Below, in pieces: positions 35,581 to 42,843 of a stretch of DNA of 42,843 bases. The stretch covers positions 1-42,843 of the forward strand of contig CALDUQ010000022.1 of the NCBI GenBank assembly GCA_937924845.1, given 5' to 3'. A program made the position numbers and the translations under genes. The stretch's first letter is position 1. The number at the start of each line of letters is the position of its first letter. The stretch is from an uncultured Flavobacteriaceae bacterium (GTDB lineage: Bacteria; Bacteroidota; Bacteroidia; Flavobacteriales; Flavobacteriaceae). The notes beneath the pieces were generated by a model. The model was not told the origin of the DNA. It worked only from the letters and a program-made list of their open reading frames with translations, and searched no databases.

Positions 35581-38500
35581 ATGATAGAAAAGCTACATTT
35601 AATTAAGCGTTATTTCTCAACAAAACTATTATCAACAGTATTGGTTTTTGTGATGTTTAGTGTTAATTTATTTTCACAAACACCTACACAGTTATACGGT
35701 ATGGAAATAACAAGCGTTGGTTCGGCAACGACTGCGGGTCAGGGTTATTTTGCTACCACAGCAGGAGCAACTGGCGATAATAATACAGGAATTTGTTTTG
35801 ATTTTACTTTTGAAAGTAGAAATCATATCAGTAATAATTCTTTTGTAAGGCAGGTTCCAGATAATGGAAATAATGATGCTAATCATTCTGGCACTGATGC
35901 ATTAGGGGTATTTTCTGATGCAAATTTAGAAATAAATGGAACAGGAGCGGATTCTTTTAATGAAAATGTTCTTCATAGTACTGAAGTGAGATGGGTTGTT
36001 AATCTTAATGCGGGAGGAGGGTCTCCTAATTTTACAGGTTTATCAAACCCATATTTGGTTATTCCAAACGGTCCAGAAATTAGGGGTGCAAGGATACATA
36101 GGCTTACTTTTACAGACTGTGAGGGTAACCCTTATGAGTTGGTTGAAGTAGCAAGGCAAGATAGTCCTGAAGGTATTTACTATGATCCTGCACTTTATGC
36201 AAATGGTGTTTTACAAGCAGCTAGCTGTGGTACAGCATGTAGCACAAGAGACGTAGGGCCAAAATTTGCAATTTTTCAAATTATGGGTGATGTAACTTGT
36301 ATTACCGCAGTATATAGAAATGTTTGGGACTCAAATAAAACTGGTTCTACAGATGGTATAAATTGGTATATTACTGATGATTTGCCAGGCTTGCCTGAGT
36401 GTAGCGATCCCAATTTAAATGTAGCAGATACAATTAGCTACTTGACCGAGTTTCCAAAATCTAGTTTTGGAGATGAAGATTGTGATGGAGGTACTGTAAG
36501 TAATTTGTTTGAAATCAATCAATCAACAAACCCTTTTTCAAATCCAGATGATGATTTAGCACCGCCTATAGTTTGTGATCCTGGATTTGAAAGACATACG
36601 GTTTATCATGCAAATGAAAGTGATAGCTTTTTACCTGGGGGAACATTAGTAACCACGACACTTACAACTTTAAGTGGTTCGCCAAGCATAACAACATCTA
36701 ATGCAAGTGCATTAGAATCGGCATTTGTTAATACAAGTAATAATATTGTAGATGGAGGGACATTAATATACAAAACAGAAGATGGAGATAGTGGAACTAT
36801 TGAATATGAGTTTTGTGCACCAATTACCGATCCGTATATCTATATAGGAAAAACAGGTGTTGAAATTAATACGACTATTGAAATATTTGAAATAGATGGT
36901 GTAACGCCAATTCCGCTAAAACCTTTAGATGGAGAGCCTGGTTTTGTAACTCAAGCAGATACGAATTTAATAACAGCAAATAGAAATAATGAGCAAGGTA
37001 TAGTGCAAATACAAGACGGTATAGCTAGAAGTAGTATTTTAGTTAAGTTTGTTAATAAAGCACCACATACTGCCGATTGGTGGAGATTTGGACTAGGTGT
37101 TTGTGTACCCGAGCTAGATAATTCAACGCCACAATGCCCAATAAGTTTAAAAAGTTGGCAAATTGGTGGTGTTGAGCAACGAAAAGTTTATGTTGATGCC
37201 AGAGGATATGCTTATATAGCAAATGACGAGAGCTGCTCTGAAAGCTCTATTGGAGATATGATTTTTCCTATAGCAGGACCAACATGTGGTGTTATTGTTG
37301 ATATACCTGGTTTTGAGGATTGTCTCACTACAGGGTGTGAAAATATAATACCTAGTGGTCCATTTTTTACGTCCCCCGACCCAATTACAACTACTAATGA
37401 TTGTGGAGAAACAACTATAGATTTAAAAGATTTTAATAATCCAGCTTATGTGCCTTCATCAGCAACTATATCTTTTCATTCAGGATCGCCAGCAACATCT
37501 GCAAATTTAATGTCAAATACAGTAGTTGATACAAACGGTACTTATTATGTAGCATATACAGAAGCAATTCCAGGTAGTATAGCTGTAGCCTATCAGCAAG
37601 TAAATGTTACAATTATAGCATGTGATCCTTGTGAGGAAGCTGTTGAATCTTTGATTTCTATTTGTGATCAAATAAATGGAGATGCAAATCACCCATTAGC
37701 CGCTTTAGATTGTGATTTTGGGGGCGAAACAAATATTTCTGAATGTAATGCAGGAAAAGACGCAAATGATCCAGCAGATGATAGTAAAGAAAATTGTTGT
37801 AACGGTATTGATGATGATGGTGATGGCTTAATAGATAATTTAGATGTTGTAGATTGTGTTGATACCGATATGGATGGTTTGCCTAATCAATGTGATATAG
37901 ATGATGATAACGATGGGATAATAGATGTGGATGAGTTTACTTGTGGAGGCTTTCTAGATGACCCAAAATTTGATACTAGTTTTAATAGTAATACAGATCC
38001 AACAATGGGATGGGTGTTAGAAAATAACGCTATATATTCAGGGTCATTTGATGCTGCCAGATTTAGTTTTTCTTCAAATGTGTATAATGGTATTTTACGT
38101 CAAGTTATAACAACAACACCAGGAAATGAGTATACGGTGTCATTTGGTATTAGAAGAGAAAGAGGGTCTGGTTCAGTAAGTATTCAGGTACTTGCTGATG
38201 GTGAATCTTTGGGTGTGTTTTCAGTGTCATCTAATAGTGGAGCAAATTTAAATAATTTATTAAGCGTTATATTTACTGCAAGTTCAAGTACAGCAACTAT
38301 TGAATTTAGAGATGTAACAAACTCATCTTTGGTAACAGTTAGCGCTGGCAATGGATCAGATTTAATATTAGATAATGTTGAAATATGTGAAGGTGGTGAT
38401 AGTGATGGAGATGGTATTTTAGATTCTTTAGATTTAGATAGTGATAATGATGGTATTTATGATATAGATGAGGTTGGTCAAGGTAGTTTAGATGCTAATA

Positions 38501-41500
38501 ACAATGGTGTTATCGATAGTATGGAGATGTCTGGTGGCGATATAGATATGGATGGTTTGGCCGATGAAGTAGAAGCTAGCAATGGTGATAATAATGGTTT
38601 GCCAACTATAGATACAGATAATGATGGAACACCAAACAATGTCGATTTAGATAGTGATGGTGATGGTTGTTCTGACGCTAATGAAGCCAGTTCAAATGCA
38701 GGAGCAGATAATAATGACGGCGGAGAGTTTGGTGAAGAAAACGCCGTATACACTATGATGAGTTCAAGTTTAATAACGGTAAATGGTGAAGTTGTTAGCG
38801 CAATGCCTTACGGTACTCCAAACGGGTCATATTTGGTTGATGATTTTACTAATTCGGTGTGTAATGACCCTTGTGCAATTACTGCTATTGATATAACAAA
38901 TGTATCAGCTTGTGATGATAACTCAACAACAACTAATTCAGCTGATGATGTGTTCACATTTGACGCCGAAATTTCATTTTCAAATGCGCCATCTGGTGGA
39001 AATTTAAATTTATTTGTTACAGGACAAACAACACCTATAGCTTCAGTAGCAGTATCTACAATTACGGGTAGCTCACATAAATTTGTTGGAATTTCTCAAA
39101 GTGCAGTAGCCGGTGGCAGTAGCTTAAATTTAACTTCACAATTTTCAAATGAAACAGCATGTAGTTTTGCGAGTACAAATGCTGTTACAGTTCCAGATGT
39201 TTGTAGTACACCATTGTGTGATATTTCCTTAATATCTGTAAGTGACGTGTCTGCATGTTCAAATGCATCGACAGTACCAGATGCTTCGGATGATACTTTT
39301 ACTGCAGATGTTTCAGTAGCATTTACTAATGCTCCAACAACAGGTAATCTAGAAATTTTAAGAGAAGGTAGTTCTACTGTATTATCAACTATATCGGTTA
39401 CAGGTTTAACATCTCCGTATGTTTTTAATGATGTGTCATTTGCCGCTAATGGAACAACAAGTGATTTAACTGCAAGATTTTCAGCAAGTACTTCATGTAC
39501 TTTAACAGAAACAGATGTATTGACAGCACCTTCAGGTTGTAGTGCAGCAGTTTGTAGTATTACAGCAATAGCAAGTTCAGCTGTATCAGCATGTAATGAT
39601 AACGGAACATCAATGATTACAACGGATGACTTTTTTACTGCAGATTTAACTATTACATTTAGCACTCCTCCTTCTACAGGTAATTTAGAGTTGTTTGTAA
39701 ATGGAGAAACAACTGCTAGAGCTGTTGTAGCAGTAGGCAGTTTATCTTCAACAACGTCTCATGTTTTTTCAGGAGTACAATTACCAACTACAGGCACTGA
39801 TGTTAGTGTTGAAGCTAAATTTTCAGCAGAAACAGCATGTACATTTGTTAATGCAACAACTGTTACAGCACCTTCAAGTTGTAGTGTTGTAAATTGTAGT
39901 ATTACAGATATTAATGCAACAAATGTATCGTTATGTAACAATAATGGTACTACAGCAGATACAACAGATGATTTTTTTACAACCGATATTGAAGTGGTTT
40001 TTTCAGGTGCGTCAAGCACCGGAAATCTTGAATTGTATACTGGTGGTTTACCGGTGTCTGGCACTGCTATTGCCTCAACGTCTATTTCAGGATTAACTTC
40101 ACCATATAAATTTATTGGTGTAAGATTACCTGCCAATGGAGCAGCTTTAGACTTGTCAGCAAAATTTAGTGCTGCTTCACCAGCATGTGAATATTCAGAA
40201 ACTAATGTGGTTACTGCGCCTTCAGATTGTAGTGTGGCATGTAATATAACGTTAATGGAAGTATCTAATCTAAGTTCATGTGACCCTATAAGCAATACTT
40301 ATACAGCTGATGTTGAAGTTACATTTGCGGGCGCACCAACTACGGGTAATTTATTGCTAACTGGAGATGTGTCTCAAGTTGTAGCATTGTCAGGTATAAC
40401 ATCTCCTTATACGTTTACAGGTGTAACATTACCTGCTAATGGTAATGCTATTAATTTAACAGCAACATTTTCTGATGATGGTAGTTGTTCATTTAGCACT
40501 GTATCTGGCGCTACAACAAATGTAGCTTCATGTAGTATTGTTCCAATAGTTAAAAATGATTGTACATCATCTGATCCTAATGCTATTGTTATTGAGTCAA
40601 CTAATTCTGTTATAATGGCTGACTACCCTCCAATTTCTGGAGCTTTAACTGTTCATTCGGGTACACCTGTTGGAGTGGCAAATCAAATTGGTACAGATGG
40701 TTATATTGCAACTAATAGTGTTACTTACTATTTAGCAGATTTAAACGGGGGTGTTTATACAGAGCTAGGGCCTATTAAAGCAGAGGCGATTAACTGTGAT
40801 ATTGAATTAAAAACAGTTAAAACATTGGATAGTACAGACGCAACACCTAATGAAGGGGATATTGTAACTTTTGATATTACAGTAACTAATGAAAGTCCTT
40901 TAAATACTGCAACATCAGTTTCGTTAGTAGATTTAATACCTATACAATTAACTCCAACCGCAAATAATGGTAACGTAACTCAAGGCGTTTATAATGGTAC
41001 AACTTGGAATATAGGGAGTTTAATAGCTGGCTCAGATGCGTCAATTACAATTGAAGGAATTGTTAAAATAGGAACAGATGGACAGATAATAACAAATAAT
41101 ACAACAGCAGCTATAGCTTCAACAACAGGGACTTTAACTCAATCTCCAGATAATGACTTAACCGAGATGGTTGTCGTAGATGGTTGCCTAGATAGTGATG
41201 GCGATGGTACCTGTGATAGTGTGGATCCTGAACCTAACAACCCTTGTGTTGGTGGAAATTTATCTCAAGTAGATTTGGCTCAAACAAATTCTCAATGGTA
41301 TGTTGCCGATTGTGATGGGGATGGTGTTCCTAACGGCTCTGAAGTAAATCCGCCAACAGGAGGTACGGTAACAGACCCTAATGAGCAATGTGATTTTGAT
41401 GAAACATTACAAACTTTAACGCCATCTCCAAAATGGTTGTTGTCAGATTGTGATGGAGATGGAACAAATAATGGAGATGAAAACCCAAGAGAGTCATTGG

Positions 41501-42843
41501 ACCCATGTGCTGAACCAGCTAATAGTAGTATAACAGATAGTGATCCTACTAACCCTATCTGGGCTGCTGCTGATTGTGACGGGGATGGAACCACAAATGT
41601 TCCTGATAATGAGCCGTATAACCCATGTGTAGATAATGGTGTTGTAGGTGACGAAGATTTTACAAACCCACTTTGGCTACAAGCCGACTGTGATGGCGAC
41701 GGAACTATAAATGGGGAGGAAGATCCCTCAGAAATTTTTGAACCATGTTTGGATAATGGAATCCAAGGAGATGAGGATGTAAGTAATTTAATTTGGCTAC
41801 AAGCTGATTGCGATGGTGATGGCGAAACAAATGGAGAAGAATTAAATATGGGTACAGAATATTTTAACCCATGTGATCATACTGTTTCTGTTGAACAAGT
41901 TGACCCTTTAAGTCCTGGGACATCTGCGCAAAGCGGATATGAAATTTGGGCTGCAGCTGATTGCGATGGAGATGGAACTACAAACGAAAATGAAACACCA
42001 GGTGAAGTTTTTAATCCTTGTGAAGACGATGGGGTTGTTGGTGATCATGATCCTGATAATGTGATATGGCAGCAAGCTGATTGTGATGGTGATGGCACAC
42101 CAAATGGAGCTGATCCGAAACCATTAGATCCATGTGTTGATAATGGTATAGATGAAGATTTTGTTGCAACTAACCCTATATGGGCTGCAGCCGATTGTGA
42201 TGGTGATGGCGAGCCTAACGGAGAAGACATGGAGCCATACAATCCTTGTATAGATTTTAATATGAGCAATATTGATTTAACTGCCACCGATTCTGATTGG
42301 TATAATGCCGACTGTGATGGTGATGGCGTATCAAACGGTTCTGAAGTCGATCCAGAAATTGATGGTATAGTCACAGATCCTTCAAATCCTTGTGAATATG
42401 ATGTAACAATCCAAACATTACAAACTTCTGATGCTTGGGCTTTAGCCGATTGTGATGGCGATGGGACTAGAAATGGAGACGAAAGTTCACCGTTAAATGT
42501 GCTAAAACCATGTGTTGATGACGGTATTGTAGGTGACGAGGATATAACAAATCCAATATGGGCAAGTGCTGATTGTGACGGTGACGGAACTCCTAATGTT
42601 TCGGATGATGAACCATTTAATCCATGTGTAGATGATGGAGTTATAGGTGATGAAGATGCAACAAATTCAATTTGGTCTAATGCTGATTGCGATGGTGATG
42701 GTACACCAAACTCAGAAGAAGAACCAGGTGAAATATATGATCCATGTGCGGATAACGGCATAGAAGGTGATGAAGATTTATCAAATGAAATATGGGTGAA
42801 TGCAGATTGTGATGGTGATGGGACTATAAATGGAGTTGATATT
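35581..42843 (+). CDS. Giant secreted multidomain repeat protein (3' end beyond window)
   Basis: One open frame of 2421 codons runs from ATG 35581 to the window edge without a stop. A signal peptide is at 1-36 (cleavage near NLFSQT). The N-terminal region of about 700 aa is cysteine-containing and has no family that I recognise. TSP3-like stretches lie at about 736-785 and 938-1040 (DDDGDGLID, DTDMDGLPN, DSDNDGIYD). A jelly-roll domain resembling CBM or DUF642 is at about 789-936. Five tandem domains of about 114 aa follow at 1098-1650, a DUF11-like domain at about 1741-1870, and 13 DCDGDG units to the end. The Asp-rich loops should bind calcium. The composition fits a type IX secretion substrate for surface adhesion, but the C-terminal sorting domain is unseen. 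Confidence 0.9.
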   Translation, partial: MIEKLHLIKRYFSTKLLSTVLVFVMFSVNLFSQTPTQLYGMEITSVGSATTAGQGYFATTAGATGDNNTGICFDFTFESRNHISNNSFVRQVPDNGNNDANHSGTDALGVFSDANLEINGTGADSFNENVLHSTEVRWVVNLNAGGGSPNFTGLSNPYLVIPNGPEIRGARIHRLTFTDCEGNPYELVEVARQDSPEGIYYDPALYANGVLQAASCGTACSTRDVGPKFAIFQIMGDVTCITAVYRNVWDSNKTGSTDGINWYITDDLPGLPECSDPNLNVADTISYLTEFPKSSFGDEDCDGGTVSNLFEINQSTNPFSNPDDDLAPPIVCDPGFERHTVYHANESDSFLPGGTLVTTTLTTLSGSPSITTSNASALESAFVNTSNNIVDGGTLIYKTEDGDSGTIEYEFCAPITDPYIYIGKTGVEINTTIEIFEIDGVTPIPLKPLDGEPGFVTQADTNLITANRNNEQGIVQIQDGIARSSILVKFVNKAPHTADWWRFGLGVCVPELDNSTPQCPISLKSWQIGGVEQRKVYVDARGYAYIANDESCSESSIGDMIFPIAGPTCGVIVDIPGFEDCLTTGCENIIPSGPFFTSPDPITTTNDCGETTIDLKDFNNPAYVPSSATISFHSGSPATSANLMSNTVVDTNGTYYVAYTEAIPGSIAVAYQQVNVTIIACDPCEEAVESLISICDQINGDANHPLAALDCDFGGETNISECNAGKDANDPADDSKENCCNGIDDDGDGLIDNLDVVDCVDTDMDGLPNQCDIDDDNDGIIDVDEFTCGGFLDDPKFDTSFNSNTDPTMGWVLENNAIYSGSFDAARFSFSSNVYNGILRQVITTTPGNEYTVSFGIRRERGSGSVSIQVLADGESLGVFSVSSNSGANLNNLLSVIFTASSSTATIEFRDVTNSSLVTVSAGNGSDLILDNVEICEGGDSDGDGILDSLDLDSDNDGIYDIDEVGQGSLDANNNGVIDSMEMSGGDIDMDGLADEVEASNGDNNGLPTIDTDNDGTPNNVDLDSDGDGCSDANEASSNAGADNNDGGEFGEENAVYTMMSSSLITVNGEVVSAMPYGTPNGSYLVDDFTNSVCNDPCAITAIDITNVSACDDNSTTTNSADDVFTFDAEISFSNAPSGGNLNLFVTGQTTPIASVAVSTITGSSHKFVGISQSAVAGGSSLNLTSQFSNETACSFASTNAVTVPDVCSTPLCDISLISVSDVSACSNASTVPDASDDTFTADVSVAFTNAPTTGNLEILREGSSTVLSTISVTGLTSPYVFNDVSFAANGTTSDLTARFSASTSCTLTETDVLTAPSGCSAAVCSITAIASSAVSACNDNGTSMITTDDFFTADLTITFSTPPSTGNLELFVNGETTARAVVAVGSLSSTTSHVFSGVQLPTTGTDVSVEAKFSAETACTFVNATTVTAPSSCSVVNCSITDINATNVSLCNNNGTTADTTDDFFTTDIEVVFSGASSTGNLELYTGGLPVSGTAIASTSISGLTSPYKFIGVRLPANGAALDLSAKFSAASPACEYSETNVVTAPSDCSVACNITLMEVSNLSSCDPISNTYTADVEVTFAGAPTTGNLLLTGDVSQVVALSGITSPYTFTGVTLPANGNAINLTATFSDDGSCSFSTVSGATTNVASCSIVPIVKNDCTSSDPNAIVIESTNSVIMADYPPISGALTVHSGTPVGVANQIGTDGYIATNSVTYYLADLNGGVYTELGPIKAEAINCDIELKTVKTLDSTDATPNEGDIVTFDITVTNESPLNTATSVSLVDLIPIQLTPTANNGNVTQGVYNGTTWNIGSLIAGSDASITIEGIVKIGTDGQIITNNTTAAIASTTGTLTQSPDNDLTEMVVVDGCLDSDGDGTCDSVDPEPNNPCVGGNLSQVDLAQTNSQWYVADCDGDGVPNGSEVNPPTGGTVTDPNEQCDFDETLQTLTPSPKWLLSDCDGDGTNNGDENPRESLDPCAEPANSSITDSDPTNPIWAAADCDGDGTTNVPDNEPYNPCVDNGVVGDEDFTNPLWLQADCDGDGTINGEEDPSEIFEPCLDNGIQGDEDVSNLIWLQADCDGDGETNGEELNMGTEYFNPCDHTVSVEQVDPLSPGTSAQSGYEIWAAADCDGDGTTNENETPGEVFNPCEDDGVVGDHDPDNVIWQQADCDGDGTPNGADPKPLDPCVDNGIDEDFVATNPIWAAADCDGDGEPNGEDMEPYNPCIDFNMSNIDLTATDSDWYNADCDGDGVSNGSEVDPEIDGIVTDPSNPCEYDVTIQTLQTSDAWALADCDGDGTRNGDESSPLNVLKPCVDDGIVGDEDITNPIWASADCDGDGTPNVSDDEPFNPCVDDGVIGDEDATNSIWSNADCDGDGTPNSEEEPGEIYDPCADNGIEGDEDLSNEIWVNADCDGDGTINGVDI
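37786..38700 (+). other. TSP3-like calcium-binding stretches flanking a jelly-roll domain
   Basis: Within the giant protein, 37786-37935 encodes NGIDDDGDGLIDN and VDTDMDGLPNQCDIDDDNDG. 38392-38700 encodes DSDGDGILDSLDLDSDNDGIYD and related DxDxDG loops. Between them (37946-38388) is a beta-rich, jelly-roll-like region beginning near GFLDDPKFDTSFNSN, with GNEYTVSFGIRRERG and ending ILDNVEICEGG, the layout of carbohydrate-binding or DUF642-like domains. The Asp spacing matches thrombospondin type 3 repeats. The carbohydrate-binding role is inferred. Confidence 0.7.
38872..40530 (+). repeat. Five tandem domains of about 114 aa inside the giant gene
   Basis: Unit starts are 38872, 39217, 39553, 39895 and 40240, giving periods of 345, 336, 342 and 345 bp. 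The last unit is shorter (291 bp, ending 40530). Each unit begins C-x-I-T/S and has VSxC, then DDxFT, then FxxAPxTGNLEL, SPYxFxGV and FSxxTxCxF, with three or four conserved cysteines. They are beta-rich and in phase with the reading frame. No family name is recognised. Confidence 0.85.
40801..41190 (+). other. DUF11-like (conserved repeat) domain
   Basis: Residues about 1741-1870 read IELKTVKTLDSTDATPNEGD followed by IVTFDITVTNESPLNTATSVSLVDLIPIQL. Next come TWNIGSLIAGSDASITIEG and NNTTAAIASTTGTLTQSPDN. The pattern (T-x-x-x-P-x-x-G-D-x-V-x-F-x-I-T-V-x-N ... V-x-L-x-D-x-L-P) is the DUF11 beta-sandwich common in secreted bacterial surface proteins. It links the 114-aa units to the DCDGDG array. 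Confidence 0.8.
41290..42843 (+). repeat. Array of 13 DCDGDG units with a 1002-bp higher-order repeat
   Basis: Each unit reads W-x-x-A-DCDGDG-x-x-N-G-x-E followed by a spacer with PCxDxGxxGDED in most copies. Tryptophan codons fall at 41296, 41434, 41560, about 41674, 41794, 41950, 42068, 42182, 42298, 42436, 42559 and two more to the end. Units 9-13 correspond to units 1-5 at an offset of 999-1002 bp (41296 to 42298, 41434 to 42436), with matching spacers, such as GSEVxPxxGxVTDP and DxTxQTL. The repeat therefore has an eight-unit superperiod. It continues beyond the window. Confidence 0.85.

Follow-up and report, generated by a model that had tools for sequence, protein, structure and literature searches.

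The window analysed here, 42,843 nucleotides in length, is the entire contig C22 of a draft Flavobacteriaceae metagenome-assembled genome (109 contigs totalling 1.95 Mb, 88% completeness). The features considered below are as follows.

35581..42843, forward strand: truncated gene of at least 2421 aa, still open where the contig stops (open reading frame and translation)
41179..41295, forward strand: unit 0, the degenerate first unit (DSDGDGTCDSVDPEPNNPC), a weak partner of unit 8
41296..41793, forward strand: units 1-4 (46, 42, 38 and 40 aa), first copy of the putatively duplicated stretch
41794..42297, forward strand: units 5-8 (51, 40, 38 and 39 aa), rest of the 8-unit period, led by a long unit as in units 1-4
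42298..42792, forward strand: units 9-12 (46, 41, 38 and 40 aa), second copy, offset by 999-1002 bp
42793..42843, forward strand: unit 13 (17 aa), truncated where the contig stops, with no special likeness to unit 5
42430..42843, forward strand: stretch used for structure modelling, units 10-13 (mean pLDDT 89.1, pTM 0.77)

The protein encoded from 35581 consists of an N-terminal leader, an unclassified N-terminal region, five ~110-aa Cys-containing repeats, a DUF11 domain (E 2.7e-11) and the DCDGDG array, and no adhesive domain was identified in its N-terminal half. The five consecutive repeats, located at 38872-40569 and ~110-115 aa in length, follow the pattern C[ASDN]I[ST]...VSxC...TADxxVxF...TGNLEL and matched nothing in Pfam at E ≤1; the genes L036, L038 and L004 begin with a similar motif. 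Far upstream of the main array, at 37800-38670, lies another group of DxDxDG motifs, which are of the ordinary TSP3 type (e.g. DDDGDGLIDNLD and DSDGDGILDSLD). No further DCDGDG coding sites were found elsewhere in the source assembly, no match to the Dockerin family was obtained in the source genome, and a plasmid search found nothing.

The array contains 13 DCDGDG units, with the first W-start at 41296, and the degenerate unit 0 that precedes them is best matched by units of the 39-aa type from other genera. To compare the units, 669 of them from 17 genes were used. The sequence-only reading had assigned one added cysteine to each unit; the comparison gave two instead, one in DC and one in PC, in 659 of the 669. 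Loop position 9 was N or D and position 12 was E or D in 668 units, and all 13 units of the window carry a DxDxDG loop with ligands at positions 1, 3, 5, 9 and 12. The Pfam EF-hand family (PF00036) matched this loop in the window gene with an E-value of 1.2e-11. In the AF2 model of units 10-13, each unit has a single short helix ahead of the DxDxDG loop, no strands and a turn of at most three residues after the loop, rather than the helix-loop-helix pair of an EF-hand. Matches to XopAW, calmodulin and other EF-hand proteins were set aside, as the calcium loop alone was matched.

The model was built from alignment A2, which replaced alignment A1 (490 columns, model pLDDT 66). In Foldseek searches with both models, thrombospondin and COMP type 3 repeats were the top matches without reaching significance (E 0.33-1.2), and these repeats were also the sole matches in the PDB at E ≤10, likewise not significant; VIA-align returned no structure that reached a Z of 2. 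In the search with the bacterial TSP3 family (TSP3_bac, PF18884), the window block scored 15.3 bits, below the 25-bit cut-off, while relatives scored above it (L045 with 45 stretches, E 7.8e-235; L038 with seven stretches). With loop ligands in 668 and two cysteines in 659 of the 669 units, and a model pLDDT of 89, a calcium-stiffened, disulfide-braced, TSP3-like stalk is plausible, in which the loops would bind calcium and the cysteines would form disulfides.

We then compared the units with one another. The sequence-only reading had matched units 1-5 with units 9-13 at 999-1002 bp, and the pairs indeed lie 1002 bp (1 with 9, 2 with 10) or 999 bp (3 with 11, 4 with 12, 5 with 13) apart. The mean protein identity of the four full pairs at offset 8 was 64.8%, whereas offsets 1-7 and 9-11 gave 41-50%. 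Permutation of the unit order gave p 9e-5 for offset 8 and 8.5e-4 for the best of all offsets. Unit lengths also recurred at lag 8, where they differ by 0.25 aa on average (p 5.5e-4). The match therefore held for units 1-4 and 9-12, but not for the last pair: unit 13 was 58% identical to unit 5 and 58-70% to other units, so that the visible duplicate consists of units 1-4 and 9-12 together with the weaker pair of units 0 and 8. As for the duplicated 8-unit block that had been proposed, duplication itself gained support from these tests, with only half of the second block visible before the contig ends. Because the unit lengths repeat at lag 4 as well (46-42-38-40 / 51-40-38-39 / 46-41-38-40, p 0.007), the 8-unit period is probably a doubled 4-unit block.

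The same order of units could also arise if no block was ever duplicated and a few shared unit types (short, 46-50-aa long and 51-aa long) were kept in a preferred order by structural selection. The recurrence of unit types across genera, the repetition of unit lengths at lag 4 and the lack of extra similarity at synonymous sites at offset 8 would all fit such an arrangement. Against it, the offset-8 pairing still gave p 0.007 when shuffling was restricted to the interchangeable short units, NGSEV was confined to units 1 and 9 and NVxDxEP to units 3 and 11 among all 669 units, and the pairs 3/11 and 4/12 were mutual best matches in the whole set. We consider this explanation improbable. These mutual best matches, together with private signatures that recur in order, instead support block duplication as the likely origin of the offset-8 likeness.

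To judge the age of the block copy, DNA identity and codon identity were compared. The paired units were 60-78% identical in DNA, and at conserved residues the identical codon was used in 53 of 103 cases between units 1-4 and 9-12, compared with 748 of 1342 for all other pairs. Given this DNA identity and synonymous sites without extra similarity, the block copy in the window is old, and a recent event finds no support in the visible part of the array. Tandem Repeats Finder did not report the window array, because its copies are too diverged. It might still be asked whether the 8-unit period is an artefact of assembly, either a chimera or a collapse, as the genome is a draft in 109 contigs, this contig ends within the array and several other draft contigs likewise end in such arrays. 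However, 22-40% of the aligned bases differ between paired copies, and the longest exact repeat in the window array is 20 nt, which makes collapse or a repeat-induced join unlikely in the visible part. An artefact is thus extremely improbable, and the suspicion of a collapsed assembly raised by the sequence-only reading was not borne out for the visible part.

To place the window array among its relatives, 397 Flavobacteriaceae genomes were searched, and 98 of them contained related arrays. The relatives' genes that are known to the 3' end encode proteins of up to 5,275 aa with a type IX secretion (T9SS) type B (CHU_C) C-terminus. Clear higher-order repeats were present in 11 of the 15 relatives with enough units (permutation p ≤0.005), with the best offset at 2-6 units and most often at 4, and the remaining arrays consisted essentially of one unit type. 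The core units of relatives were commonly 97-100% identical in DNA, compared with 56-75% at the array ends. The gene of Nonlabens tegetincola (L005) and a closely related gene (L004) share the same unit order at the N-terminal end and differ in the number of 4-unit blocks. Most core units of L004 were 92-100% identical to their own copies 4, 8 or 12 units away and 76-93% to L005, while some edge units were closer to L005 than to their own copies. Variation in copy number, which the sequence-only reading expected between strains, is thereby supported for the family, by the differing block number of these related genes. The array frame of Nonlabens tegetincola is interrupted at 15079-15912 of L005, and a second frame carries six further units, which reflects either a frameshift or an assembly error.

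These comparisons show that the arrays undergo concerted evolution by blocks. As the relatives show, such an array evolves in a satellite-like manner: in its middle, blocks of 2-6 units are gained, lost and homogenised, presumably through homologous recombination, whereas its ends diverge. The 8-unit period of the window is most likely the trace of an old duplication of a block within the N-terminal edge, which has since diverged. We also considered whether block-wise amplification is itself selected, as it would provide long stretches of identical DNA on which recombination and changes in length could draw, and keep neighbouring domains dissimilar. This idea is tentative and more probably wrong than right; if true, such dissimilarity would keep adjacent units from misfolding and from forming wrong disulfides while they are exported.

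The visible edge in the window had 56-78% DNA identity, unlike the 97-100% in the cores of most relatives, and the longest exact repeats were 113-1740 nt in relatives that contain a core. Of the array, the window holds the diverged N-terminal end only, and the contig probably stops at the start of the homogenised core, which fits the contrast between these long exact repeats and the 20 nt found here. The draft contigs L006, L039, L040, L041 and L049 also stop inside the array or within ~200 bases of it.

The C-terminus of the window gene lies outside the assembly, and we infer its sorting domain, carrier and core from the relatives. In all seven relatives with the downstream sequence available, a PorP/SprF-type gene directly follows the array gene, and in six of them this gene is followed by one of the OmpA/PD40 kind; the domains were checked for L038. 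The L038 carrier matched PorP_SprF with an E-value of 5.4e-90, and the L038 array protein matched CHU_C (E 4e-24) and TIGR04131 (38.1 bits, cut-off 35); CHU_C was also found in L045. Three carriers of the source genome were compared with those beside DCDGDG arrays. The one truncated where contig C11 ends was 55-57% identical to four of these array-side carriers over its 209 residues, and the other two were 45-50% identical. Contig C11 is thus a candidate for the other side of the gap from C22. Contig C46, which starts with a T9SS C-terminus and a carrier, is less likely than C11, because its carrier is 47-50% identical to array-side carriers and its first residues are not array-like. Contig C60 was rejected as a partner, as it belongs to a different repeat protein: the first part of this contig (L074, 1-2493) encodes a T9SS protein with near-identical ~67-aa repeats (EVQAMITAVNASQS...DAFSxPATQA), and its own PorP/SprF gene comes after it. 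Contigs C25 and C18 begin with nearly the same T9SS C-terminal gene end (L076 and L077, 2-403); the two may be paralogues or an assembly split at a repeat.

Taken together, it is likely that the gene encodes a giant T9SS type B surface protein with a TSP3-like stalk, whose array evolves by blocks and retains an old block copy at its edge. The window would hold the 5' part of this gene, and the C-terminal part of the visible protein would be a stalk of ~38-51-aa bacterial-TSP3-like repeats, each with an EF-hand-like calcium loop (DCDGDGxxNxxE/D), a short aromatic-led helix before it and two cysteines. The unseen remainder, by analogy with relatives, would begin with a core in which multi-unit blocks are homogenised, continue into a C-terminal edge that has diverged and end in a CHU_C sorting domain, and a dedicated PorP/SprF-type carrier encoded downstream would hold the protein at the surface. 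Calcium in each loop and cysteines bracing neighbouring segments could make the stalk a stiff rod, which may display the N-terminal domains.

T9SS type B substrates remain bound to a dedicated carrier at the surface, and in Flavobacterium johnsoniae a cysteine pair of SprF ties the carrier to the track protein GldK (PMC12635249). The window protein might accordingly be imagined as an SprB-like motility adhesin dragged along the gliding track. It has in common with the SprB/SprF system the giant repetitive surface protein and, in relatives, CHU_C and an adjoining PorP/SprF gene; the type B signal and the carrier gene of the relatives speak for this reading. However, the C-terminal CxC motif was absent from all seven neighbouring carriers and from the C11 candidate, the likely own carrier, all of which end in PRFF and so differ from SprF in lacking the twin-cysteine tail used for track attachment (PMC12635249). 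Another carrier of the same genome, L065, ends in CQCPNKF. Because the carriers considered here lack the tail that L065 possesses, a passive, long, calcium-stiffened surface stalk seems more likely than a motility adhesin, and we regard the SprB-like reading as quite unlikely.

Centromeric satellites are the best-known setting of higher-order repeats. Here they occur inside bacterial genes, in arrays found in about a quarter of the sampled Flavobacteriaceae, most of those examined having a homogenised middle and diverged edges, and they offer a bacterial system in which to test how arrays turn over and what this costs in protein folding. Because draft assemblies often break in these arrays, short-read and metagenome data probably under-report such stalks. 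No description of DCDGDG arrays, or of higher-order repeats in such proteins, was found in the literature searched, which covered few subscription journals.

Among known families, the units share the core DxDGDGxxNGxE...GTDPxxPC with TSP3_bac (PF18884), but those of the window fall below its cut-off and largely lack GTDP, and the units here have two cysteines each and a ~15-25-aa linker that contains an aromatic residue. Like the thrombospondin and COMP type 3 repeats (PDB 2rhp, 3fby, 1ux6), they line up DxDxDG calcium loops one after another, contain cysteines and form little regular secondary structure. In contrast to those repeats, the unit here is longer, a short helix is added and secretion is bacterial, and the fold matches are not significant. 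Periscope Proteins have length-variable, rod-like stalks that are built from near-identical DNA repeats and project N-terminal domains (PMC8201768, PMC9704523). The present proteins resemble them in a probably length-variable stalk that would project N-terminal domains, but the repeating DNA element is here usually a block of 2-6 unlike units, with a median protein identity of 0.45-0.74 between adjacent units compared with 0.70-0.98 at the block offset. The DCDGDG arrays would be a new variant among the length-variable bacterial stalk proteins.
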